A stretch of 64,000 bases of DNA from the NCBI GenBank assembly GCA_009801085.1, contig VNWV01000026.1:1-64000 (forward strand), read 5' to 3'. This DNA comes from Lasiodiplodia sp. COLG20. Lineage: Eukaryota > Ascomycota > Dothideomycetes > Botryosphaeriales > Botryosphaeriaceae. Below are positions 7,228 through 55,146 of this stretch, piece by piece (positions within the stretch are counted from its first letter, which is position 1; every line of letters starts with the position of its first letter). The notes under the pieces were generated by a model, which was not told the DNA's origin, searched no databases, and was given only the letters and a program-made list of their open reading frames with translations. The position numbers and the translations under genes are program-made.

Positions 7228-7456
7228 GGTGGTGTCGGTGTTTCGCGTACAAGGATATCGGGGTCAGCAAACAGTTAAATAGTGGACCCCTGGCAGTGCC
7301 CCGCTTCGTGTCACCCGAGGCCCTCTTGGCCTTCCGATAAGACTGCGGGAATTCTGCTTCATATGCCTCCACTCCTTCCCATCTTCAAAAGGTATTGTGG
7401 ACCTCCAAAATAGCACGCCTATCGAAATCCATCAAAACTTCATTCCATCGTCCCTC

Positions 7457-10400
7457 ATGGCCGACAAAAAAGGGCTCAAGGGGCACAGGTACACACTCAG
7501 CTCGGCCATTGATCCACAATCGCAGAAATGGGAGTACACGGTCGCAAAATTCCCCCCTGTCACCGCCACCAACGCCGCCGGGCTGACTAAGTGTGTGAGC
7601 TTCATCTCCAATCCGTCACGGCAGGAGATAGTTCTCCGCTTGGAAGCAGTTCCGCAAAACAGAATCACGAAAAGTGACCCATTGGACCGGTTCATGTTCT
7701 TGTCGTTCTCCGACTTCCGCCTCGTTCGGCCTTCTCAGACGGACCCGTCGAAGATGGAACAAGTTCCGGCGAGAGAGACTGCAGACTACATTTCACGCCT
7801 TCTCAAGTCGGGGATCCGCTTCAATGGCGTCCATTACAATTTCTACGGACACAGCAATAGCCAGTTGAAGACGCGTTCCTGCGTCTTGTTCGCGGACACG
7901 AGAGCCGCCATTCACCGCAAGATCGAGTCTCTCGGCGACTTCTCGAAAATGACGACCGTCGGTAAGAAGGCGAAGAGGATTGGTCTGCTGTTCTCGAGCG
8001 CCGAAATGGGTGTCGAGCTGGCTCCTGAACGATGCGAAGATATACCAGACGTTGAAGCCAATGAATACGTCTTCACGGATGGTTGCGGGCTCATATCGGC
8101 GCATCTCGCGCGTCTGCTCGTGGAGAGCGTCCACATCGCTTTTCGCAACCACAAATACATTCCTTCGGTATTTCAGATTCGTTATCGAGGCTACAAGGGA
8201 GTGCTCTCGCTCGATCCGTCGATGGGTACCCAGTGCCTTGCGAAGTTCAGATCTTCGATGAAGAAGTTCCGCGGTGGAGACGATCTAACACTATCCGTCG
8301 TTGACTACTCAAAGGTATGCCTGAAAAATGTCTGCATATGATAGTGCCTAACATGAACAGCCGTATACCTTTGGCTATCTGAACGATGAGGTGGTTCTCC
8401 TGCTACACGCACTTGGGGTACCCGATGAGGTTTTCCTTCGCAAGCAGGCTGAGCATCTTAGTTTTCTTGAGTCAGCCACGCGCCTGGACGTGAGAATGTG
8501 CTTTAGGTTTGTCTCTTACTGCAACCGTCTTGATCTTGCCGAGAGGCTCCTGATCAGCGGTGTCGAGACCGTTGAGAAAGAGGTGCGAAAACTCGTCGGC
8601 CAAGAATACGAGAGAATGCTCACCAAGAGGAACGAACAACGGTGTCGCATTCTCATTCCCCAGTCAAGATTGCTCTTCGGCGTCTGCGACCCGAAAGGAT
8701 TGCTCAAAGAAGGAGAGTGTGCCGTCCGAGTCACAATGGATGGAGATGGCCAAGCTCAGACCATTGTGGGAACCCAAGTGTTGGTTACGCGAAATCCTTG
8801 CCTACACCCAGGCGATCTCCAAAAGTTCAAAGCCGTCTTTTATCCAGAGCTATCGCACCTCGTGGATTGCGTGGTGTTTCCGACGCAGGGTAAACGGCCC
8901 AGCGCCGACCTCATGTCTGGAGGGGATCTTGACGGCGACAAATGTAAGTTCCCGGTCTTTCAAATCCCCAAGCATTCATTGACGTCTCACAGTCTTTGTT
9001 TGTTGGGACAAGGATCTCATCCCTGCTGTTGTTTCTGAGCCGGCCGAGTATCCTGGGCCGAAAGCACCAGTCGCCCTCAAGCCCATCACCGAGGACGATC
9101 GGATCGACTACTTCGCCCAGTACAGCAACATGTCACTCGGACGGGTCAAGAATCTTTTCCTCGCCTGGGCTAGACTACACGGTCCACTAAGCCCGCAATG
9201 TCAACAATTGAACCGCCTGTTCTCGCTTTGCGTTGATGGCAACCGGATCAAAGTGCCTCAAGATCTGCAAGACCCGCCAAAGGGACCGGTACCCAGTCCC
9301 GGATTGATTGTCGATAGGCTGCACGAACAAGCATCAACCTTCATACAACGGAGCCTTCCATCACCCACAATGTACCACGGATATTCATCCGATGCCGTTG
9401 AGCTCATATCAAGCCGAGACGAGATAGCCGTTTCCGAATTCGAGCTTGTGACCCTCACGTACAACTGGTGTTTGCAACAAAAGGTGGAGATGATGCAATT
9501 TCTGTCATTCTTCGACTTGAACAAGCTTACGGATGAACAAAAAGCGTGGGTGTTGAGTAGAGTGCCGCCTACACTGGAATCTGCTGGCATGGTCATGAAC
9601 TCCTTGAACCAGTCAAACTTGTTGCAGTCTCAGGAGCTTCGTCGCTTCGGGTTGGATAATCCTGGTCTTCACTGGAAGTGCGTCTATGATTCGTCAATCG
9701 ACAGGCTTGGTACTTTCTTCAACAGCGCTAGCCGGACTCTCGAGCTTTTCCACAAAAAGCTCATCATTCTTCGCATCGACGAGCGTCTAAGCGTTGCCAT
9801 ATTCATTCCTCAGAAAATTGAGAAGAGCACAGAATTCCAAGTTGACGGACTCGTTCGGGTATTCTCCTTCCCGCATTCCAAGGAAAGCTCTAATGCTGCG
9901 AGACGAGTTATTCCCACCAAGGTCAACTACCGCCTATATTGCGATGACAATACATTCCAGTTGTATGAGAACAGGCGTGCACAAACTTGGATATTCCTGA
10001 CGCGAGGAGCACTCGACGATTCGACGTACCGAAACGTCAAAGACCGTGGAGACAGAAGAAGAGTCAAGCAAGCGAGCATCGATACCGGGACTAACTACGA
10101 ATGCCGAGCCAGTATCGATCTGGGAAGGATGGGCAGGGACATCCAGCGGCACATGGGTAGGATAAATCGGGCGGGCATTGCAGGCGCAGTAAGTACCCTA
10201 CACATCTCTGAAGCATCCAGTCCAGGTGTTATGTAGATATAAGAGGCGCACTATGTAGCTTCAAAGACCCGATTATCCGTACTGAATTGTGTTACAGGAA
10301 ATCTATGTCATCAGCAACAGAGATACCAGTTCGCTGCGTCAGCTTGATCTCTGGCTAGAGCTAGTGGACACTCAGGACGTCATTCCCCTCTTCCAGCAAA

Positions 10401-12778
10401 CACCACGAGAATACACCGTCCCGCATCTGAATGGAGTTGATTGGACGTCCGAATCCACCTTCATCGTCGACATCGCCCGTGATGGAATGCTCGCGTCGAT
10501 GGGGAAGTTGACCAAAACAGAAGAGCTATGGATCCTATTCCGATGGCTTGCCCGCTTCGATCAGCGCGTACGATTGCTACAGATATACAATTGGCTGTCT
10601 ACCCCAGACCACTATCGCGAAGTCAACATCGATGTGCTTGAGGTGGCTCAAATAATGCTTCACTTTCTATGCGAGTGCCCTTTCCTCACCGGGCCGTACT
10701 TTCGCTCAGACATTTGGCTTTCCCACAAAGAATCCCTGTCTGAGGAATGTTCGACAACGCTACCCAGCCTACTTAAAGAGTTGATCCTGTCCTCAGAACT
10801 CATGGAAAGCTTCGTCAAAGAACCATTCATGACCGCCCTCAGTTGCGTGTCCGAAATGACATTCCAACTATTCGGTGAACTCGTGGAAACTATCTCATTG
10901 AGTGTTCATTCCGCGGATCTGGCCATGGAGTTATTGTTTGAACTCCAGGAAAGAGCTCACGATCTGCTCTCAGGAACAACGAGAGCTGTTGAGAGATTCA
11001 CCAAAAGTCTCCTTGGTATCGCCTTGGATCACATAGGGGAAGCAATCTCTGTTGCAAAGGTCAAGAATGCACTTGTGGACGTGATCCGGGTCCCGGGAAA
11101 GGATGATGGCACTTTAATCGAGTGCAGGCTACGCATCGATCAGCAAACAGCCGTGCTGCGTGTTGGAGATCATGTGCAGCTTGTGGCAGCATCTCTTCCG
11201 AGCAATGCAACATTAGACAGAAGGTACTCGATGGATGTCCTCGTTGAGGGGAGCGAGCGGGGCAAAGCAAAAATGCGCTGCATCCACCACCCTCCGCCAT
11301 TCCTCGAGGAATGCTCATGGAAGATCAAGAACTGTGGATCGTTCGTTACAAGCAAGACAATGCTAGATGCGGTCGTGGAGCTCTACCGCGAAAGAGAGAT
11401 CTGCAGCATCTTGTACCAGCCCATGACGGAGACTGGGCCCACAACTGGCCTCCCCACTCCACATCTTAGTGCAGGATCTCGCACCCCCGACGACACCTCT
11501 CTAAACGAAAGCCAACTCGCCGCCGTCTCAGCAGCGCTAACCCACCCACTATGCCTCCTCTGGGGTCCCCCGGGCACCGGCAAAACCCGCACCATCGTCG
11601 CGATCCTCATCCAGCTCCTCCTCGGCTCCCACACCGGCAGAGTCCTCGTAACCGCACCAACCCACAACGCCGTCGACAACGTCCTCCGGAAGTTCATCGA
11701 GCTCCACGGCATCGCCCGCACGCAAACCACCCCCCTCCGCGTCTCCACCGACGTCGCCAAAGTCTCCGAGGACCTGCGGCCGTACACGTGCGACGCCATG
11801 ATGGGCAAGGACATCAACGAGCACTTCGACGCGCGCAAGAAAGCCGCCAAACGCATCAAAGAAGCGCGGCTGCTCTTCACCACCTGCGTCGGCGCCGGCC
11901 TGGGCCTGCTCCGCGGCGAGAGCTTCGACACGGTGCTCGTCGACGAGGCGTCGCAGCAGACTGAACCAGCCTCGCTCGTTCCGCTCGCGAAAGGGTGCAA
12001 GCACGCTGTCCTCGTCGGCGACCACGTGCAGCTGCGCGCGACAGTGCAGATGCAGTCGCTCGTGGCGGACTTCGACGTCTCGCTGTTCGAGAGCTTGTAC
12101 GACGAAGCATCAGACGTGCCGGGCCGGCTGGCGAAGGTCATGATCGATGTGCAGTACCGCATGCATCGGCAGATCTGCGCCTTTAGTTCAAAGGAGTTCT
12201 ACCAGGAGAGGCTAGAGACGGCGGTGCGGGACGACGCGCGCCCGCTGCCGGCGTCGGCCTTTGCGTGGCCGACGTTGCCGACCGGGCAGCCGGCGCGCAT
12301 GGTGTTGATCCCGTGTGCCTCCCCTGAAGACATCGGGCAGAAGTCCAAGAGCAACCGCGGCCAAGCATTTTTATGCCGCGAGGTCTGCAGTCAACTGTTG
12401 AGCTTCCCGCCCGGGTTGGCCCCGGAAGCGTCTCTGACTGTCGCTGTGCTGACGCCATACTCGCGGCAGAGGGAGTTGTTGAAGCAGATGCTGCCGAAGA
12501 GCGATATGCTCGAGATCTCGAGTATCGACGGGTACCAGGGGCGTGAGGCAGATATTGTCGTGTTCGTCACGACGAGATGCAATGTCCACGGCCAGTTGGG
12601 CTTCTTGTCGGACATGCGCCGCTTGAACGTCACCATGACTCGGGCAAAGGCGGGGGTGGTGATTATCGGGCACAAGGAAACGTTGTGTGGTGGGGCAGAG
12701 TCTGACATGCCGAGCAAGCAGACGTGGGGTCGGCTGCTTGCGTCATGTCAAGAGATGGCTATTGAGACTCAGAAGTGA
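7457..12778 (+). CDS. RNA-dependent RNA polymerase fused to UPF1-like SF1 helicase
   Basis: Predicted 1705 aa from four exons: 7457-8314, 8361-8943, 8993-10188 and 10298-12778. Introns of 46, 49 and 109 bp keep frame. Residues about 1-880 are a eukaryotic RdRP core: FTDGCGLIS region, then the catalytic GGDLDGDKFFVCWD block with DLDGD at 475-479. Residues about 880-1705 are an SF1B helicase: Walker A GPPGTGKT near 1302-1309, DEAS box near 1428, QYRMH motif, and the motif V/VI region SIDGYQGREAD...NVTMTRAK. The helicase frame has no ATG close to its start; the third intron carries the only stop between the parts. RdRPs make dsRNA for RNAi, and Hrr1/SAD-3-like helicases partner them in fission yeast and Neurospora. 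The RdRP N-terminus is shorter than many fungal homologues. The start is the first in-frame ATG. An upstream exon is possible. Confidence 0.85.
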
Positions 12779-15672: not shown

Positions 15673-16441
15673 GGTTGCGCGTTTGGTAAAGCTTTGGGGA
15701 AGTAAGTAGGAGCTGTGCGATGGTACTATCCGATGTAAATGATTGTGGTGGGATGGAACTTGGTCTTTAATCACAGAGATTTCCGTACCGTACAGATTGG
15801 ACGTGCTCGTAAATTTCCGCTTTGGGTTAGGAAAACGCAGGAGTGGGGAGGCCAAGTGACTTCTCGTTTAGACGACATGGGCCGTGGGGAGTGCGACCAG
15901 GGTCAGTCCGCCTAACGCGCGATGGCTGTTTGTTGAAGATGCTGTGGAACTTATTGCTGACGACGCTGACAATTGGGTGGGGGCGCGTTGAGGTGATGTG
16001 GGGAACCGGTGCTTGTCTCCGGGTGTGCTCGGCGTGCGGGGGTTCTGATTGGCTGGTTAACGTGGGTGATCTTATAAGAGTCGATTGTTTATGTCTCAAT
16101 GGCCGAAAGTGCTGTTTTCTGTTCGATTACGAGATTTCTTGTTCTTTCATCGATATTCCAGCCTTGCGCAGCCCTCCACGCCCAACGCAACCAGTGTCGT
16201 GTGGCCTGTCAATGACTTCATTGGACGATCGTTATCCGAATTGCGCCTTGCGCTGCAGCCACGACCTCTTGCAGCGCTCAGCCCCGCACACTTTCTGACG
16301 TCTCGTGAGTCTGCTTCGGCTGCCTACAAGGCTGCACGTTTCAGCCTTCTCTATTCAAATACTCCCTCTTCCTCAACACCACCTCACTTCAACTGCATCA
16401 TCACTCCCTCCGACTCGAGTTTTCCCGAAAACACCATCAAG
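15673..16441. other. Divergent intergenic region between amidohydrolase and HET gene
   Basis: This region carries the promoters of two divergently transcribed genes. The 16350-16440 segment is pyrimidine-rich, as often seen just before fungal start codons. The frame of the HET gene stays open upstream to 16085, but the extension has no domain similarity. Confidence 0.5.
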
Positions 16442-18313
16442 ATGCAGCGCTGTGCTCACTGCGGGCACTTTGGCCGCCGCAGCACGCATTGCTCGCCTCG
16501 AAAAAAGAAATCGCGCCCGAAAGCCCCGCGACCGCGTCAGCGCGCCGACAAAAACAACCGGAAAAGAGGGATACTCCCAACTGAGTGCTTTATCCCTGTC
16601 GGTACACCTCGCTATTCTCACACGCCATTCGATGACACGCGTTGCATTCGCCTTCTCGTTTTGCTCCCTGGAGACAAGTGGGAGCCCGTCCGTTGCGAAC
16701 TCGTCGTCCGGCCGCTCGACAATGCGCATTATGAGGCCATCTCATATGCTTGGGGCCCCAAGGAAGAGAAAGGCGACATCCTGTGTCATGATCAACGACT
16801 GAAAGTCCCCTGGAATCTGGAACACGGCCTAAGGAAATTTCGCCGGCTTAGGAAGAAACGAGTCCTCTGGGCTGACTCGGTGTGTATCAACCAAGATGAC
16901 AAGGCAGAACGAGGCCACCAAGTCCAGAACATGTCAAGGATCTATGAAAATACCAAAAGAGTCCTTGTCTGGTTGGGCTTTCACGAATATTCCAATCCCA
17001 GCGCTTTATTTGAATTCATCAGAGCACTGGGACCTTTACCACCACCGGATTATCAGTCCGTGGGCTACATCAAACACCAGATCAAAGTGTATGGCTGGAA
17101 ACACTGGCAAACTTTTAATAGCCTCGATCATACAGGCTGGTTTCGACGTCTGTGGGTCATCCAGGAGATTTGTCTTGCACCCAGTGCTATCGTACATTGC
17201 GGTCCAGCGTCCTTGGATTGGAACCTTTTTGCGTCCTTTTGCGACTACATGTTCTACTATCTGGATGAGATCAATATTGCCTATAAGCTTTCCATCGTGA
17301 GCATGGTATTACGAATTCATGGTTTGAAGTTCCAAGACAGTGGCCGAGACATTCCTTCGATCCTTAACGTCGGTCGAGTAAAGCAGTGCGCAGACCCCAG
17401 AGATCATATCTATGCCTTTCTTGGGCATAAGGCGTGCCTGGAGACAATCTCGAATCCCGATTCAGAGCTATTCCTCCCTGTAGACTACTCAATCTCCCAT
17501 AAGGATCTTTACACGTCAGTTGCAATCCGGATACTCCAGGCTGAGAATCTTTCTTCCCTCCATATTATCAACTTCGTCAGTCATAATCCATCCAGCATTC
17601 AGGACCGTACCATCAGCTCCTGGGTTCCGCGATGGGACATTTACGGGTCACTCCCTTTTGTTTACTATCCAACTGAAGATGAATATAAGACGCACGGGCA
17701 GACTGCGGTAGAGGCTTCCTTAAATGGAAGTTGCTTAAACGTTGCGGGGTTTACCTTTGACTCAGTCGTATGGGCGTCCGATACTATCGAATACGGCAAC
17801 GATCCCTTTAACGGACTAGACGCCTCAAACCAACACCCGTTCGTGCAAGTTTGGAATCATGCTCGAAATATAGAGGGAAGGAGTTCAAATGATATATTTG
17901 AAATTTTATGTACCATGATAAGCAACAAAAATAAAGGATCGAAAGATGAGGAGCGATTTGTGAGTGGCGCGGTGGCATACGCTTACTCCATGGGGCTAGA
18001 TGTCTCAGGAATGGAACATTTGGTCGCCTTCGAAGCCATACCATACTTCTTCAGCGAAATGAGTAGAGGTCATCGGTATTTTTTTACTTCACGTGGTTGG
18101 GTTGGACTGGGTCCGAGAACTACTCTGCTTGGAGATGATGTTTGCATTTTCTTTGGCGCTCCGACCCCATTCGTTGTCCGGCAGCTTCCATCGGCCGGCG
18201 AGACTCTTTACCGACTGTGTGGCCCATGCGATATTCCCGGTATCATGCAAGGAGAAGCGATCAAAATGTTTGAACGAGGAGCGTTTGATAGGACAACTTT
18301 CAACTTGATCTGA
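16442..18313 (+). CDS. HET-domain protein
   Basis: Single-exon frame of 623 aa from ATG 16442. The first 55 residues are Cys/His- and then Lys/Arg-rich (CAHCGHFG, then basic). The HET domain (PF06985) spans about residues 95-250, with YEAISYAWG, VLWADSVCINQDD, the IY..TKRVLVWLG block and RRLWVIQEICLA. The C-terminal part has the usual DPRDHIYAFLG and late G-rich region of HET proteins. HET domains trigger cell death in vegetative incompatibility; many paralogues have no known partner. A longer start at 16085 would add residues without similarity and is less likely. No damage is seen. Confidence 0.88.
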   Translation: MQRCAHCGHFGRRSTHCSPRKKKSRPKAPRPRQRADKNNRKRGILPTECFIPVGTPRYSHTPFDDTRCIRLLVLLPGDKWEPVRCELVVRPLDNAHYEAISYAWGPKEEKGDILCHDQRLKVPWNLEHGLRKFRRLRKKRVLWADSVCINQDDKAERGHQVQNMSRIYENTKRVLVWLGFHEYSNPSALFEFIRALGPLPPPDYQSVGYIKHQIKVYGWKHWQTFNSLDHTGWFRRLWVIQEICLAPSAIVHCGPASLDWNLFASFCDYMFYYLDEINIAYKLSIVSMVLRIHGLKFQDSGRDIPSILNVGRVKQCADPRDHIYAFLGHKACLETISNPDSELFLPVDYSISHKDLYTSVAIRILQAENLSSLHIINFVSHNPSSIQDRTISSWVPRWDIYGSLPFVYYPTEDEYKTHGQTAVEASLNGSCLNVAGFTFDSVVWASDTIEYGNDPFNGLDASNQHPFVQVWNHARNIEGRSSNDIFEILCTMISNKNKGSKDEERFVSGAVAYAYSMGLDVSGMEHLVAFEAIPYFFSEMSRGHRYFFTSRGWVGLGPRTTLLGDDVCIFFGAPTPFVVRQLPSAGETLYRLCGPCDIPGIMQGEAIKMFERGAFDRTTFNLI

Positions 18314-27116: not shown

Positions 27117-29780
27117 CTACTTTAGCCATATATCTTTGAGTTCCCAGTCGAATGAGCTCCATTGCTTCAAAAAAATCCAGCCAAGACCGATGCGTCGTGC
27201 ATAACCGTCTTCCCAACTAACAAACATGATATTTACCCTCGGGGTTGGAACAAGAGGCTTATCATTGCAATCGAAATATGTCAGGTCGCGGTATAGTTCG
27301 TCCCACTCGCTGACGCCTTCAAGTGAAATGTCTTGGTAGTTCAGTTTTACCACTTGTTTGATGTGACGTTCGAAAGCCGCTGATATTGAAATGGCAATAC
27401 CCTCGATATTACGCTCCCCATCATCACAGCACTCCTCGTAGTTACTACATTCCTCGTAATTGCCGCAGTCCTGAAAGTCGTTGTCTTCTTCAGGGTCACT
27501 GTCTCCTTCGGGGTCACTGTCTCCCTTGTGCATGCCCTGATTGGCTTTCTTAATTATTTTGGCAGGCTTCCTCTGGTACACACGACCAATAACCATCCCA
27601 TTGGCGTTTTGAATCCATCCGGACCGAATGTTGAAAATCCCAGATTGCGCCTTTGTGAACAGAATGCCATTACGCCCAGGTAATTGACGGGTGTCAGCTT
27701 CTCGCACCTCGTTATAGGCGTCCTTGTACGTCGGCCATCGGGCCGTGAAACGATCCTCTGAATAATAAAACCATTTGTACGCTGGTATGGAGACTTTTTC
27801 TGCTGCTATGCATCCTTCGTTTATTGCAAGAGCGAGAAAGAGCTGCGAAGATGATCTCAACACTTGCCACATAAAGGGTTCATCTATTGCTTTAAGCTCT
27901 AGTCTGTGCAATCCACATGCCTCTGGATTGGCACTCTGAGAACTCATGTCGGAAACTTGGGCTTTATAAAGGACCCATTTGACGAGAGTCATGCAGAAGA
28001 AATGAGCGTATACTACTCCACAGGTGAGCGATCCCCAAGACCAGCTCGGAGTTGTTTCAGCGCAGGCACGGAGGCACCTGCTACGGGAATCATTCCATCG
28101 GCAGCCGCAGTACCAGAGAAGCGACTGGTCAAAGCAAGGTTCCGGAAGTCCAAAATGAAAACCGTCATTCCGTCCATACAGAGCATGTGCAATTCCATCA
28201 AAAGCGTTGTATATGTCTGATGCGTAACCGAGCTTTCGCCTCGTGTACAGCGTAAGGTGTTTCGCATAGTCCATGAAAAGAGCGAAATCAGAGAGGAGTG
28301 TTCCATGAATCTAAACATTTGAGCCCAGGGGTTGTGTAGATAATTGGATTCGTATTCTCGGAAGATTTTTCTCCGACACTGGAACCAGACTTCCATTGGA
28401 GTCATAATCAACATTCGTTCGGAAAGGGTCGCTTCTTGATATGTCCATCCTCGAGTGTTCCATATAGACTCTGGGACAATGTAATGCAGTTCAAGAGACT
28501 GATAGCTGATGGTAAGAACCTGAATATTTATACTGCGCGTCTTCCACTGCCTTTTTCTGCGGACTCCTGGAATTCCAGACTCTACGCCATCTCCTGAGCA
28601 AGCAATGACTGTAATGGCAGATGATGAGTAAATGTCGGCCATTGCATTAATCTGGGCATGTTTGTGGGCCGCATGATCCTGGACAATGCAGTATCTGTCG
28701 ACCCAAAGGTATTTGATACCGAGGTTTTGACATATCGCGATTGCGTCCTCAATAGTCTCCGGTAGCCTGATGAGGCCTCCAGGAACTTGGAGGCTTTCGA
28801 TGTTATCGCGCGTAGCTTGCTCCACATAGCATGCCGACTCTGAACGGTTTCCCCACACGTAACTGAGCGCCAAATATTCACAGAAACCTTCTCTTTCTAC
28901 AACACATCTTTTGTTGACGTCGATAACTCGGAAGCCTGGTGGAACAGTTTGCCTTGAACGGTATGCACACTGAGTTTTGTGATTCTCGTTGCATTCTACC
29001 AGCCAGCGGCGGACAGCGTCCCATTGAACAAACTCTTCGGAATTGGCCAAGGTGTTAGTTGAGGCTAACAACATGTTAGAATAGCAAAGCAAGATTCTTG
29101 TGCACTTTTTAAGTACCTTGATGACGGTCGATATTGAACCAGACAGAATACGGACGTGCTGGATTACCTCTATGAGCTTCCATTATCATATTGCGGCGGC
29201 TCGCACATGCGCCAATCTTAAGGGTCGCAGACGTTTCCGAAGTAATTTCCACCTCGGAAACGCCAGTTTGCGGAAGACTTATAGCACTCGTTAGAAAGTC
29301 GCATAGATGACACTTCGCTCGGCTCAGAGCTCGGGAAGGCGGATCCAGGTCTATTAAAATCCTGATCAACTTTGGCACCTCTGGCACTTTTGGGTTTTCC
29401 CAAATGCACCAGACAAGATGTCCCAACCGGAGATGCTTGCAGAAGTCGCAAAGAGGGATCTGTGCTCCATCTGGAGAAGAGCAAGACTGGCATTCCTCAT
29501 GAAAGACAAAATGTCGAATTTCGGCTATGCTCGGCCCGTCCTCTTTAGTGATTGGAATATTGTCCTCGGTTTCGCGTTGCAAAAGATGAGAAGGCAAGTT
29601 TAGACAAGGGCAAAATGGGCAGTCGGTCGTATGTAGATCTGCAGAGTCTTCTTGGGGATCTTGTTCGTCGATGATGGGAGAAGTAGGGGTAGAGGAATTT
29701 CTCGCTGGGCCGCGGAGCGCATCGCAGGGAACAGTCCATTGTGACTCATCTGTGCCACTTTCCTCGGAAACGCAATCCAT
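27117..29780 (-). pseudogene. HET-domain gene with a frameshift
   Basis: Exon 1 is 29117-29780 and exon 2 starts at 29064 after a 52-bp intron (GTACTT donor). The HET domain is clear: EYLALSYVWG, IKYLWVDRYCIVQD, ADIYSSSAITVIACSGDG and WNTRGWTYQEATLS. Near 28275-28280, at a short A run on the plus strand, the frame is lost. The family sequence resumes one frame over as MDYAKHLTLYTRRKLGYASDIYNAFDGI and stays open to 27117. One added base would give a protein of about 870 aa. The C-terminal part has an acidic SDPE/YEECC-rich stretch. No GT-AG intron explains the shift. It is either a real inactivating indel or a homopolymer sequencing error. As it stands, the HET domain would be made but the C-terminal half would be lost. 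Confidence 0.75.
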
Positions 29781-48737: not shown

Positions 48738-51700
48738 TTAACACAAATAGAAGACTTCAGGAAAAGTCTCCGGGGACGCGGATGCCTCTCCGTACATGAT
48801 CCCGGTGATGAGGCACTGTCCAACCAGTCGGTAAGAATCAGTATGCACTTCACCCCTTCTCAGAAGAAATGGCACCTCTCCGCCGTTGAAAATGCAAACT
48901 AAATCACCAACCCTCGCTGTGCCGGGCACCATACCGCCGAGGCCTTTTTCCGTACCCACAAATTTCCACCCGTCCACTATGTCCACGAGCAAATCGACAC
49001 CAGCTGTTGACTCATAGTTGCAAAAGTATTCTTTTTGGTTCTGCCTGTCGTTGGGGCATGTGCAGAATTCCGTGATGGCGTCGACGAGGTGGCCCTTAAT
49101 AGCTAGTACATTGGGTTCCTCTCCACAACGTATATCCGCTTGCGACTTACCGGAAGCATTGAAAGCAACCCCAAGAGAAGATAAGTCTGCAAGGCTCCCT
49201 ACCGTTGTGGTAGTCCAATCAGGTATCCATGAAGGGAAGCGGTCGGGCTGAGAACCCAACCCAGCAGCGTTGAGCAATGTCATGCCTCGGCCCTGGGCAA
49301 CAAACGCTTGTGCGATCTTAACAACGATATCTTCAAAATTGGCGTCGTAGTCTGGCGCATATGCCGGGTCATTTCCGTCAGATGCCAGTCCGAGAAGGGC
49401 GAAAAACCGATCTCGTGCCAGGCTACTGTTGACATGTCGGTAGCCTTCCAAAAGCTGCGCCAACGGATAACGGATTTGTCGGGCTTCGCTTTCACGGTGC
49501 CATCCCAGAGCCATGAATGGGCTCCATGAAATTGCATACGTGTCTGAGATCGGTAGCTCGTATTCCACGAGTTTCATGGCTTCGAACAGGTCGTGCCAGT
49601 CAAAGGCTAACCCACCACACACCATCGTCACCGTCGGTGCAGCAACAGCCTCTTGTATGATCCATGCTCTTCTAAACCACGGGCGGCGGAAGAAGGCAAC
49701 GATATCTGTCCAAATCTGGCTTTCGGCTCCAGGCATGGAGCGCCCTTTCCATGAGGGGGGAGGGTGCGACAAATCCTTCGGCCATTTCTTCATTTCTGAG
49801 CCGCACACTGACTTTGCATTAATCTGCATCAAGGTCGTGATGGCGTCATTTCCTTCTTTGTCGGCCCCAAGGAATGCGATAGTGCAGGAAGCGTTTTGAT
49901 AGATTCTCGGCAGAAGGCGGATTTGGTGTGCTTTTTCTTCCGCGTTCTTTTGGTTGATGCAGATAGCATCTATCCATAGATGCACGCGACATGACTTCTG
50001 TCGAAGCATCAGAAGAGCGTCTTTTAGAGAAGTCTTGACTGTTAAGATTCCATCCGGTGTCAAAATGGTGTGTGTTGGCTGGTTCTCAATACCCCACACA
50101 TAGGAAAGTGTCCTGTATCGTCGATCAGACGTCAAAGGTATTGTGCAGACCTCCCCACGGATTGCATCACCCTGACGTCCAGGAAAGAGTATAAATACTC
50201 TGAATAATCCATCATCCAGATTCCTGTAGACGTAATCATGGTTGGCCCATTCCCGTATGCCCATGACGGCACTCATATTTTGTGATGATCTTGTAGACGG
50301 TGCGGTTTGCCCTAAATAGCCTGAGTTAAGGCTGTTTGGTGGCTCTGTTCGCATATTGGTTGTGCTTGCGAGTTCTGGTCCATCTTCCACTGCGGTTTGC
50401 AGCCTTCGTACAGATATTTCTGAGGACGGTGTTGTGATCTGGCTGTCGGGCTGCGAGAAGGCAGGATTCATCGGAAGAGGTTCCATGGAAACGCTAAAAT
50501 ATCCGTTGCCCTGTATGAGCCATTCTTCTGAGCAGAACAGGCCCCAGGGATCAATCGATACCTCAAACTGGGGTCGCTGGTAAACGTTACTGACCCTGAG
50601 TAGGATCACTACGTCTCTAGGGAATTGGTCCAGACAACCATGAAGTTTATATCGACGAAACTACGTGGATAATTAGTTTTTTTCTATGCAGGTTTCTTCC
50701 ATCAAGGCCATAGCATCTTACGTGAAAGAAAAGACGGGGTGGGGCTCTCACTCTTTGGATCTGCGACCAACTACACACAAACGGAGAACCCGTTGCGCTT
50801 TCTGAGGTAACAACTTCAAAATGGAAGATTTGAACTACCCCGCGCCAACTCTTGACTCCATCGAAACCACATCGACATAAGAAGTCTATGACCTCGGTAG
50901 ATGTGGGTGACGCTGCTATAGTGAAGGCCGCTTGACCGTCGCAATTTTCCGGACGAGAGAGTCCAGCCCTCGTCCGAAGCTCACTGGTCCAGTGTTTTAC
51001 CGGATCGTAAGTGGTTCCGAGGTAAGCCTCTAGAAACTGAGAAGCCTAGTTTCGGTAGTATGTCAGGAGTAGGATGGCTTGAATGTAGTGGCAACTTCAC
51101 TTACCATGTGTTGCCCAATAAATTGAAGGTCTCCGTTTGGATCCAACTCCTTACCCATGTAGTATAGGCCATGTGTCTCGAAGTATAGATCTGCCATTTT
51201 TAGTATGGGGAGTCGCCTATCTGAGATCGATTGTCCATCTTCTCCCTCCCGCGGACTGTTCCTTCTCCCACATTGCCTGGTTCGAGCGTCAGCATCATTT
51301 AACTCATCGCCGAAATAGTCGCCATGCCGATAAAATGGGTACTGAAGTGGAAGAAGATCCCAGTTCTTGCTTGGTGTCGCTTTTGGAACAGACCTACACT
51401 ATTTGTGAGTTATGCGGAGGCATATTGCAGATCAAGATCATCGGACGGAGTTTATACCTTGAGGCGGTACACTGACATGGAGTCCTTTCTTTGCGAACCT
51501 GGTTTGAAGGCCCTGAGTATCGAATTCGCCAAGAGCCTCGTATAGAAGGAGCAGATGTTGTGTATCCTTAATTTCGCAATATTGCGCAATCTCATCCCCA
51601 ATATCGAAGATAGTTTGGTGAGAAGGGTAGTCTTCGTTGGCTAGGTAAAGTTTCATTCCCATGTCGTTGAAGGATGAAGCAACGTTGGCTTCGTGTGGTC

Positions 51701-54700
51701 GACCGTGTACCTTGGTGTTTCCTTGCTGCAAGAAGTATTCCTGGACAACTGCAGCCGCTGTGCTAACGCTGATGGATCTTAGGTGACGGAGTAATGTCTC
51801 TCGTCCGGAGTTGGAGTTGGGGATTAACCTTAAATCGAAAAGTCACGTTAGGGGTGGCAACAAGGCGAGCTCCAATAATCAGGTTAAATACTTACTCTTG
51901 GATGAATGTCACCCGTTCTCGTAGAAAATTTTGATAGATATTGCAATGCCTGAAAGGCGCTTTTGCACTTGATAGAGCTTGCACCGATTGGGATAGACTG
52001 CGTGATTCCAAGTCGAGGCTTTGTAAGAGCTGTTTGATCCCGAGTATGTCATCCACAGAGAAGGCCAGCAAAGGCACCTTGTCGTAGAAGCTCTCCTGAA
52101 GATAAATCTGGTCTGCAATAAACCAGTCGCCGTCCTGGGGAGCTACTAATTCAAATGATAGAGTGCTCTCGGGCTTCTTGACTGGCATGATGCTTTTTTT
52201 CTTGAGAGGCTTTACTACACGAATGGCTTTGAGCGGGTCCATGGCTCCGATGGCGCGGCTGATGTCTGTGAAGATGTGTAGAATGTCAATAAGCTCAGTA
52301 GAAAGGTTGACCGACTCGGCAGCCTCTACCAAGTGGCTTATTTGTGTTTTTTCTGGTGCAAGAACATCTCCGAAAAGGCGCCTGCATGTTGGATATCGAG
52401 CCTCAAGGTTGACCTTTCTTTTCGCACACTCTTCAATTGTGATCCAACAGACGCTCTCTGTAGCCCTCCGCTCGCTAAACTCCACGTATATGGAGCTGTT
52501 TGCTTTGAAGAAGTTTCTGCTCAAAGTTAACACGGGCAACATATTCAAGGGGCTTTGCCACTTACATCACCAATCTTTCGTGGCCAATGCATTCATTCTG
52601 AATCTTCTCATATAGATAAGTCACAACTTCCTTCCGTGGACTGTCCTCGTGCCGCACGTGTCTCAAGCAGGTCAGGTAGTATTGGATACCCGCCTCAACC
52701 GTTATGCCAAGTTTTTTCAGCCCTTGTCGGGCAATGCCGTCGTGGATCTCGAGATCCAGTGTGGGAAGCGAAACCTCGCCCTCGACGTTGGGGTCAAGTC
52801 CTGGTAGCATGGTTTCTCGAAGCATGGAGAGACCAATGTGCGTCTGCACGGCCACTTCTCCTATGTCTCTGATAACAGATAACCGACTTCGGTTTTTAGA
52901 CTCACTTTCTCGGTCATCTTTCTCGATCCACCGGGAGTAGACCCACCAATACTTCCCTAAAACTTGAAGTATGTCTGAAGTTTGGCATACTTGAAACAGA
53001 ACCTTAACATCATTGGAAAGATGGAAGTTGTCGACTGACTCGTACTCCACTAGTCTCGGGATGGACCAAACTTGGAAGACATCTTTCAAGTAGTCTCGCT
53101 CTGTTACCGTGTTGAAATAGGCGAGATATTCCTCATGTATGACTGGAAAATGTCTCGACAGTTGCTCAAATACCCTGCTTTCGGGGGAGTTGGGTCGAAC
53201 CTCGTCTCTCATATACAGGCTAGAGCCTCGGCAACGTTGACCAGTGGAGGTTGCAAACCAGATGTCTATCTCATGCATTGACCGCCGGGAGTTGTCGAAG
53301 AGGAATTTAGCATGTGAGATCAATTCTTCTTGTGAATAACTGTCGGGATGGAATTCAGATGATGCGTGCGCCTCGATGATGTAGATGCATAAGTCTGAGA
53401 TTAGGCAAGTGCGGACTCCAAGTATCGAAAACAGTTTCCCACGATGATCGTATGTCGCTACAATTGGGTCAACCGTTTCTGGAATTTGGACGCCCGTAGA
53501 GAAAGCTGGAAACTTTCTGTCAGCGAAGACTGGCTGGCTGCTTGCCGAGACCCATTTCCCACTGCGAACCGGTATGAGTGTGAGCTCTTCTATTTTACTC
53601 CTGCAGAAAGAGTCTGTTTGGAGATGCATCAATGTTCTAGCAAGCTCTGAATGCCATTGAGGCGGTCGGTTGCGAAAGGCTTCTGGATCAAAATCGATCA
53701 TTAAGCTGAGGTGCTCTACAAAGTCGACCTCCGAAAGTCTGCGGAGGCCTATTGAAGAGAGCTTGTCAACAATCGATGGCGAGTATTCTGAGGACAGATA
53801 ACGGCCTTCCGTACATGGGGCCAACGTGAAAGGTGTCCCTGTGCTGTCCGAAAACTTGGTCCAATCGATGTAGAATAGTTTGGGCGGTTCAGCCATCTCC
53901 TTCGAGAATGTTAGCAACACTTTGCGTTGCTTTAATTTCTCCATGACCATGGACCTCGCTGGCTCGAAAAATGGTGACGTCTCCGGACCAGGCACAAAGT
54001 ATGGCCAGACGTGTGTTATTGCGCTCTCGTTCAACTGGTCGACAGCGGAAAGAAAGGCATCAGCCAGATTGTCGCGAAGAGCTTTGTTCCAAGCTAGCGA
54101 TGTTTCGATCTCCAGGCGGCTTGCTGTGAGAATAAAATCTCCATGCAAGAGGAACTATAATTCTCGTAAGCTTCATTTTATAAGATTACGAATCGGGTGA
54201 AATCCACCTTTAGCCCATAGTCGCGAATCGGCAGGGTTGCGTATACGTTCTGTGTGCCGCATTCACCAACAGTGGATGAGTCTACAGTGGGAAAGGCAAG
54301 AGCCAGTTCTGACTGAGTACAGTTCTGGCGCCTCGGCTCGATTGGCAGTTGCTGTATTTGGTGTTTTACGACCACAAATGTCGCCTTCTTGCGTCCTGTT
54401 GCTAGCTCGGTGACTGTTTGGCCATGCCTGGAGTAGTCGACCCGTCCTAAATTTCGGTTCAAGTTGGACCCCGCTTTCTGTTCTACTGTCAGGTGAATCT
54501 TTCGGATCCTTTTGAGGAATATAAGTTGCAGAGGATCAAACTCTCGGAGTTGCTTTTCGAGAAGCTCTTCGTTGTAATCGCTTCCCAATTGGAAGAACAT
54601 GGAGGTAGTTGTTGGTGAGGTGGCCCGAGGAAATGTTGCCCACGAAGGATAAATCATGCCGAGTTTCTCTCTCTTGTCGAACTTGAAGCTGTAGGCGTTT

Positions 54701-55146
54701 GAAGAAATCCAAACTACATCAGCAGCTTTAAACACACTTTTGAAGCCAATACCTTTCTCCCCAGTGAAGCCGTCGACACTATCACGACTTCCCTTCGTAC
54801 TCCCTCTTATTGTGCAAATAGCCTCGACGTTGCTAGCAGTGAACCCTGTCTCATTGCAATCGACACGGAGGCTCCCAGGTTGATAGGTTATCGTTAATGT
54901 TGGGTCCGTACGCGTATTATACGTGTTGTCGTCAGCATTCTGCAGGAGCTCGAGCAGAAAATGGGTCTCCGTGTCATAGAGCTCATAAGATAGCCTATTG
55001 CTCTCGTAAGAGGGAGTGGCACTTGGGCAAGAGAGGAGCGCGTACAGCTCGAGGGCGTTGCCCAGAATTGAAGCGACTTTGCCGTTGAGCTCGATACTGT
55101 ATTCTGACCGTATCCTTTCGATGAGTTCCCTTGCGTCCTGTGCCAT
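48738..55146 (-). CDS. GHKL (sacsin-like) ATPase - NOV domain - HET domain fusion
   Basis: Predicted 2003 aa from seven exons: 54208-55146, 52566-54154, 51896-52516, 51458-51828, 51105-51379, 50752-51045 and 48738-50660. All six introns are GT-AG and in frame. The N-terminus is a GHKL ATPase: FLLELLQNADDN (about 67-74) and GEKGIGFKSVF (about 129-139), then GLKFLLHGDFILTASR. A long helical region follows. A NOV/DUF3883 domain lies at about 1270-1410: FHFEVVTSESATGSPFVCSWSQIQR joins across the last intron to FRRYKLHGCLDQFPRDVVILLRVSNVY and SIDPWGL. Because this domain ends inside the last exon, the following HET domain (about 1515-1700: YRTLSYVWG, VHLWIDAICINQKN, RAWIIQEAVAA) belongs to the same protein. 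The fusion suggests an ATPase sensor with a HET death effector; this is inference. The start is the first ATG in frame. Confidence 0.82.

Follow-up and report, generated by a model that had tools for sequence, protein, structure and literature searches.

The window analysed here is the whole 64,000-nucleotide stretch from position 1 to 64,000 of contig VNWV01000026.1 of Lasiodiplodia sp. COLG20; the gene in question lies on its minus strand, from an ATG at 55146 to a stop at 48738, and is predicted to encode a single protein of 2003 residues. The N-terminal third of this protein resembles TmtA of Tiamat, a bacterial anti-phage system, and towards the C-terminus a NOV domain is followed by a HET domain. 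We consider it fairly likely that the protein is an intracellular sensor that triggers regulated cell death. The features of the gene, in window coordinates, are:

48738-55146, minus strand: whole coding gene, seven exons, predicted 2003 residues (splice model)
55146-54208, 54154-52566, 52516-51896 and 51828-51458, minus strand: exons 1-4 (splice model)
51379-51105, 51045-50752 and 50660-48738, minus strand: exons 5-7 (splice model)
53165-55002, minus strand: region matching bacterial TmtA, residues 49-643, in exons 1 and 2 with the intron 54207-54155 between them (PADLOC profile)
54676-54978, minus strand: sacsin/GHKL-type ATPase domain, residues 57-157 by Pfam SACS (Pfam, NCBIfam, exon 1 model)
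54925-54951, minus strand: N-box ELLQNADDN at residues 66-74, including the Glu and Asn of catalytic type (homologue conservation)
50752-51000, minus strand: first part of NOV, about residues 1281-1363, in exon 6 (homologue alignment, hhalign)
50800-50826, minus strand: decayed nuclease motif FHFEVVTSE, residues 1339-1347, with V1344 at the lysine position (column counts, hhalign)
50661-50751, minus strand: intron 6, 91 nt, whose removal unites the two NOV parts and thereby connects NOV with HET (splice sites, homologue alignment)
50520-50660, minus strand: end of NOV with DPW (D1400, P1401, W1402), in the HET exon (conservation)
50253-50507, minus strand: linker between NOV and HET, predicted to be disordered (predicted local distance difference test (pLDDT), conservation)
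49650-50117, minus strand: HET domain, residues 1545-1700 (Pfam PF06985, also the genome scan)
48741-49133, minus strand: beta-rich C-terminal region after HET (AlphaFold2 strands from exon 7 residue 510 on)

Gene structure and the HET domain

The splice model comprises seven exons and 6012 coding bases with an open frame throughout, and all six introns are of GT-AG type and 49-91 nt long. Intron 6 has the donor AGA/GTGAGA, the acceptor CACGTAG/ and a branch-like ACTAAT; once it is removed, exon 6 (51045-50752) continues into exon 7 (50660-48738) in phase 0. Left unspliced, the exon 6 frame stops at 50647, ahead of the NOV tail. Exon 7 is one uninterrupted open frame that holds both the conserved NOV end and the full HET domain, so that the NOV-HET join requires no splice at all. 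Two details of the model are less sharply fixed: for intron 4 (51457-51380), 10 of the 24 donor/acceptor combinations tested keep the frame open and give 1984-2013 residues, both 78-nt options giving 2003, and intron 2 has a possible second acceptor 3 bases upstream, as read from the sequence.

A protein search returned 971 relatives, and the homologue counts given here cover the best 120 of these. Alignments made with BLASTP span the exon 6/7 junction in 113 of the 120, and 84 of these 113 have no gap within 8 residues of it. A HET domain, scored as at least two of three HET motifs, is on the same chain in 106 of the 120, and 96 of these 106 fused proteins are 1900-2400 residues long. The sequence-only reading had held that two apparent tandem genes are one, that a 91-bp GT-AG intron at 50661-50751 joins them in frame, and that the last strands of NOV are encoded only in the exon that carries HET. 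The open frame, the plausible splice sites, the continuity of exon 7 and the homologues aligned over the junction agree with it on each count, and the predicted gene structure confirms that the locus encodes a single gene with ATPase, NOV and HET in one chain. That the model has merged two neighbouring genes, one for ATPase-NOV and one for HET, is hardly conceivable: HET-less relatives do exist, at three loci of this very genome among others, but the NOV end and HET share one stop-free exon, and the fusion recurs in most homologues with the junction aligned.

The HET domain proposed earlier was recovered as a full-length Pfam match (PF06985, 7.4e-31, 107.9 bits against a curated cut-off of 22.5, profile positions 1-146 of 146). 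The AlphaFold2 model of exon 7 has a mean pLDDT of 80, with the linker ahead of HET (exon 7 residues 52-136) below 50, and no other 60-residue stretch has identity and occupancy as low as residues 1441-1500. Most of the listed homologues carry the precomputed label PF26639; this model did not turn up in the Pfam scan. According to published work, HET by itself is enough to kill cells and is distantly related to TIR (PMC12881547, PMC10890737, PMC10197012).

An ATPase region related to Tiamat

Exon 1 encodes a sacsin-type ATPase domain. NCBIfam NF047352, the sacsin ATP-binding domain, matches exon 1 above its cut-off of 50 (2.6e-16, 59.8 bits), and the Pfam SACS match lies below its own (6.9e-6, 26.5 bits, cut-off 32.8). 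The ATPase motifs are intact and near-invariant: among 117-120 aligned homologues, E66 is conserved at 0.99 and N70, G101 and G134 at 1.00. The roles of E66 and N70 in the N-box are those we assume from general knowledge of the GHKL family. Modelled with AlphaFold2 (mean pLDDT 82.1), exon 1 matched Hsp90 (E 1.0e-7) and the SR1 domain of human sacsin (5v46, E 1.9e-7), with TM-scores by query that are low, at 0.40 and 0.36, respectively. Scanned against Pfam at E up to 1, the protein gave HET and SACS alone and neither NACHT nor NB-ARC, in keeping with the earlier claim that this is not an NLR.

The longest family match is to TmtA. The PADLOC profile PDLC03972 matched the spliced protein at 6.9e-63, residues 49-643 aligning with profile positions 30-644 of 1302, so that the similarity extends beyond the shared ATPase fold. 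TmtA profiles also matched the homologue P0001 at 8.7e-70 and the HET-less homologue P0082 at 1.1e-82. The control was another large protein of sacsin type, also encoded in this genome (L015, G000:C45:578000-587900; a 1608-residue frame plus an upstream ATPase exon), taken as two pieces: it matched TmtA at 1.3e-14 over about 110 residues of the ATPase exon and at 6.9e-11 in its middle region. Because the control scores too, the TmtA label alone is loose and not exclusive; it is the 595-residue match that is distinctive. Neither the protein studied here nor any of the 120 homologues matched L015 at 1e-6.

A role as a chaperone of the sacsin kind or in the stress response, with HET only regulating or localising the ATPase, would fit the resemblance of the exon 1 model to Hsp90 and to SR1, sacsin having been described as a chaperone (PMC3710099). 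We think this distinctly unlikely. The protein differs from sacsin proper in having a single SACS stretch, with no DnaJ or HEPN match in the Pfam scan; its longest family match is to a phage-defence protein; and it keeps the motifs of HET, which is a death domain in the three HET papers cited above (PMC12881547, PMC10890737, PMC10197012).

We scanned prokaryotic genomes with the fungal alignment and obtained 301 relatives, of which 80 were kept, 67 of them open frames of at least 900 residues. Six long relatives were scanned with Pfam: NOV_C is above its cut-off in all six, near the C-terminus and after SACS, and SACS is above its cut-off in five, the sixth reaching 30.8 of 32.8 bits. The best TmtA profile matches of these six are all 2e-198 or better. 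With a profile made from their six NOV domains and iterated once, a C-terminal NOV was recognisable in 31 of the 67 long relatives. The order ATPase, middle region, NOV is thus that of a large part, though not all, of TmtA-like proteins, which makes HET the addition. Two relatives end differently, one (L079:5923-10992) in an AAA_19/AAA_11 helicase-type domain and one (L068:5953-9744) in DUF7669, and NucS_C occurs in one of 30 other NOV-less relatives; the outputs of Tiamat-like proteins may, on these domain matches, be exchangeable in bacteria too. A published table places Tiamat itself with systems whose mechanism is unknown, crediting Doron 2018 and Millman 2022 (PMC12926258).

The NOV domain and its nuclease motif

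The NOV domain is too divergent for the Pfam model, so its assignment rests on profile-profile comparison. In a single hhalign comparison, a profile of the NOV region of 103 HET-fused proteins matched the 31 prokaryotic NOV domains at 94.6% probability (E 6.4e-8). With 10 HET-less sequences in the profile, among them two pieces of this genome's paralogues, the match was at 96.0% (3.8e-9). At the domain's end, P1401 and W1402 are conserved at 0.99 and 0.93 among 113 aligned homologues. DUF3883 is the older name of NOV_C. It has been described as a novel restriction-enzyme domain (PMC3710099).

The comparison places bacterial IEVK on FEVV of this protein, so that the (D/E)xK motif of Tiamat-type NOV domains reads EVV here. 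All 31 prokaryotic NOV domains have the motif intact, as do the two HET-less paralogues from this genome whose NOV can be read (L012, IEVK; L013, FEVK). It occurs in none of the 104 HET-fused proteins with an alignable NOV. Among the ten HET-less listed homologues with an alignable NOV, (D/E)xK was found in four, DxR in four, and ExA and DxA in the two others. These counts rest on two columns of one MAFFT alignment and leave out three HET-fused and three HET-less rows without an alignable NOV and one partial HET row (DxA). Six HET-fused proteins of one lineage keep the lysine and have L (five) or F (one) in place of the acidic residue; the others have lost the lysine, which implies at least two separate losses of the motif. 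The NOV of HET-fused proteins has, to judge from these residues, probably lost catalysis. As for the earlier NOV assignment, the identity of the domain is probable from profile-profile comparison; the Pfam NOV_C (DUF3883) model proposed as a check gave no match.

A protein with two outputs, in which NOV still cuts nucleic acid while HET kills, would be consistent with the retention of E1342, a position that is D or E in 76 of the 104 HET-fused proteins. It is very unlikely in view of V1344 in place of the lysine, the lack of (D/E)xK throughout the HET-fused set, and an A at position 1310, which is D in 62 of the 120 homologues. The interpretation that fits best is that of a Tiamat-type sensor whose nuclease output has been replaced by a HET death domain; we hold it to be somewhat better than an even proposition, with sensing and killing as its conjectural parts. 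The sequence-only reading had suggested a sensor-effector for defence or for self/non-self recognition. This suggestion gains support, its functional side staying a prediction, and the relation of the N-terminal third to TmtA, which that reading had not seen, is added to it. What the present work newly contributes is this relation, together with the finding that the nuclease motif has decayed.

Family history, genomic setting and proposed function

The predicted ATPase-NOV-HET architecture is that of a widespread ascomycete family, the genera represented among the homologues including Fusarium, Xylaria, Daldinia, Aspergillus, Fonsecaea and Coccidioides. It had been put forward as an arrangement without a known description; none was found in the literature searched, by term matches and with partial coverage, but the arrangement is a common one. 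A word check found no mention of HATPase or GHKL in PMC12881547, PMC10197012 and PMC12258605, of HATPase or sacsin in PMC9815663, or of ATPase or DUF3883 in PMC10890737. In the part of the literature searched, no report of fungal relatives of Tiamat came up either, and one may exist elsewhere.

A tree of the ATPase region, built with FastTree from 169 taxa and 562 columns, unites the fungal proteins in a single group (support 0.989). The same genome contains three HET-less relatives, L012 (G000:C50), L013 (G000:C22) and L014 (G000:C1); no HET was found at these three loci, nor NOV in L014. They group together (0.999) beside the other 121 fungal proteins (0.825).

The following mechanism would accommodate these features. 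The Hsp90-like ATPase and the long middle region would form a switch, ATP binding and a clamp keeping the protein at rest. An intruder or a host cue might be recognised by the fast-diverging stretch at about residues 1080-1260, the least conserved outside the linker (identity 0.18-0.19 vs 0.56-0.61 in residues 61-180), or by NOV, which would no longer cut. The ATPase would then close or dimerise and so free or cluster HET, tethered by the flexible linker, and HET would kill, possibly through a TIR-like activity that consumes nicotinamide adenine dinucleotide, which is a guess. The ancestral Tiamat-like protein likely used NOV as a nuclease effector, an output that HET-bearing lineages would have replaced. 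A wider account, to which we give slightly less than even weight, is that ascomycetes adopted Tiamat as an immune sensor, swapped its nuclease for the TIR-related HET and then underwent repeated decay of NOV, giving rise to a non-NLR, Hsp90-switched class of receptors across Pezizomycotina.

Several observations weigh against replacement of a nuclease by HET in a Tiamat-type sensor. On the structural side, the exon 1 model reaches only low TM-scores against Hsp90 and sacsin (0.35-0.42 by query over the 50 best rows), similarity to TmtA past residue 643 is weak (788-1117 at 1.1e-6), and Foldseek and VIA gave no convincing relative of the HET model among solved structures, which leaves the TIR-like activity without support here. 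As to NOV, Pfam NOV_C (PF13020) has no match in this protein or in 24 relatives, and the prokaryotic NOV profile found no fungal protein below 0.001, this protein not being listed. Judged by these profiles, not every TmtA-like protein has a NOV: in the remaining 36 of the 67 long prokaryotic relatives (6 + 30), some of them cut by contig ends, Pfam NOV_C was not found either. Its presence in only 31 of 67 weakens the case for a nuclease as the general output of Tiamat, and the profile behind the 31, seeded with six NOV domains, may favour intact motifs. Within the fungi, eight HET-less proteins of black yeasts (Chaetothyriales), four with DxK and four with DxR, nest inside the HET-fused group, so that a gain of HET followed by loss of NOV function would need several parallel losses, or else HET was lost with NOV retained. 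The HET-less models P0050 (ExA) and P0054 (DxA) break the motif pattern, as does the partial P0058 (DxA); P0054, which still carries PF26639, may be a misannotated HET protein. Lastly, the homologues were sampled by similarity to this protein, and HET-less lineages are under-sampled as a result.

The genome (G000) comprises 43.5 Mb in 88 contigs and has at least 150 HET domains (429 candidates, of which 150 were scored). Many known het genes carry HET (PMC10890737, PMC10197012), and the middle region and linker are the parts of the protein that diverge fastest between species, as might be expected of an allorecognition (het) determinant whose alleles differ among strains and whose HET kills fused cells of unlike genotype. 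Few HET genes are het genes, however, 4 of 132 in Podospora anserina (PMC10890737), and with HET domains so numerous in this genome we regard that role as unlikely.

Of the window's open frames, ten were scanned for neighbours, selected for their size and position. An NLR-like gene lies at 80-2916 on the minus strand, an NPHP3_N/NACHT frame (NPHP3_N 9.3e-32) being followed by a GPIID winged-helix frame (1e-11). On the plus strand, an RNA-dependent RNA polymerase frame at 7283-8338 (3.8e-45) lies upstream of a helicase-type frame at 10286-12775 (AAA_12 5.4e-46, AAA_11 1.4e-41); by their domains, these two are possible RNA-silencing genes beside immune-type genes. Two further HET genes are at 16070-18310, plus strand (2.8e-30), and 28016-29182, minus strand (2.3e-33), so that the 64 kb hold three HET genes, against 0.6 expected if the 429 candidates were evenly spread. 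It has been suggested that certain regions of fungal genomes could be like bacterial defence islands (PMC10197012); the window is compatible with such a region, and proves nothing.

The function of most fungal HET proteins is a gap in knowledge (PMC10890737, PMC10197012). If the Tiamat-type sensor with a HET output is real, a large set of HET proteins would be related to an anti-phage system and would have as their switch an Hsp90-like ATPase and not an NLR. Two questions would then become directly testable: what Tiamat senses, and whether HET is the exchangeable output of an ancient sensor. That the nuclease motif has decayed in proteins bearing HET is a concrete sign of effector replacement.

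Among known systems, Tiamat is the closest to the fungal protein, having a sacsin-type ATPase, then a long middle region and at the C-terminus, in those 31 of the 67 long relatives noted above, a NOV, all in the same order; the fungal protein differs in being spliced, in having lost the NOV lysine and in the HET death domain added after NOV. A bacterial GHKL-nuclease protein is also known to defend against phage (PMC12137116): in VcSduA, a GHKL-type Shedu, one chain holds a GHKL ATPase and the PD-(D/E)xK domain that this ATPase is believed to regulate, but the nuclease there is of another family (DUF4263) and intact, and no HET is described (PMC12137116). The HET-NLRs of Podospora (HET-E/D/R) resemble the fungal protein in placing a HET effector on a large nucleotide-binding protein (PMC12881547, PMC10197012); their HET is N-terminal, with a NACHT switch and WD40 repeats, whereas here HET is C-terminal and the predicted switch Hsp90-like. 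The BH protein of het-B in Podospora anserina likewise carries HET in a non-NLR protein, although with HET at the N-terminus, a lectin-fold partner and no ATPase or NOV described (PMC10890737). Animal sacsin-like proteins with DEATH, for example in sponge, offer a parallel in that a sacsin-type ATPase is fused to a death-pathway domain; their partners are DEATH or HEPN, in place of the NOV-HET pair (PMC3710099).

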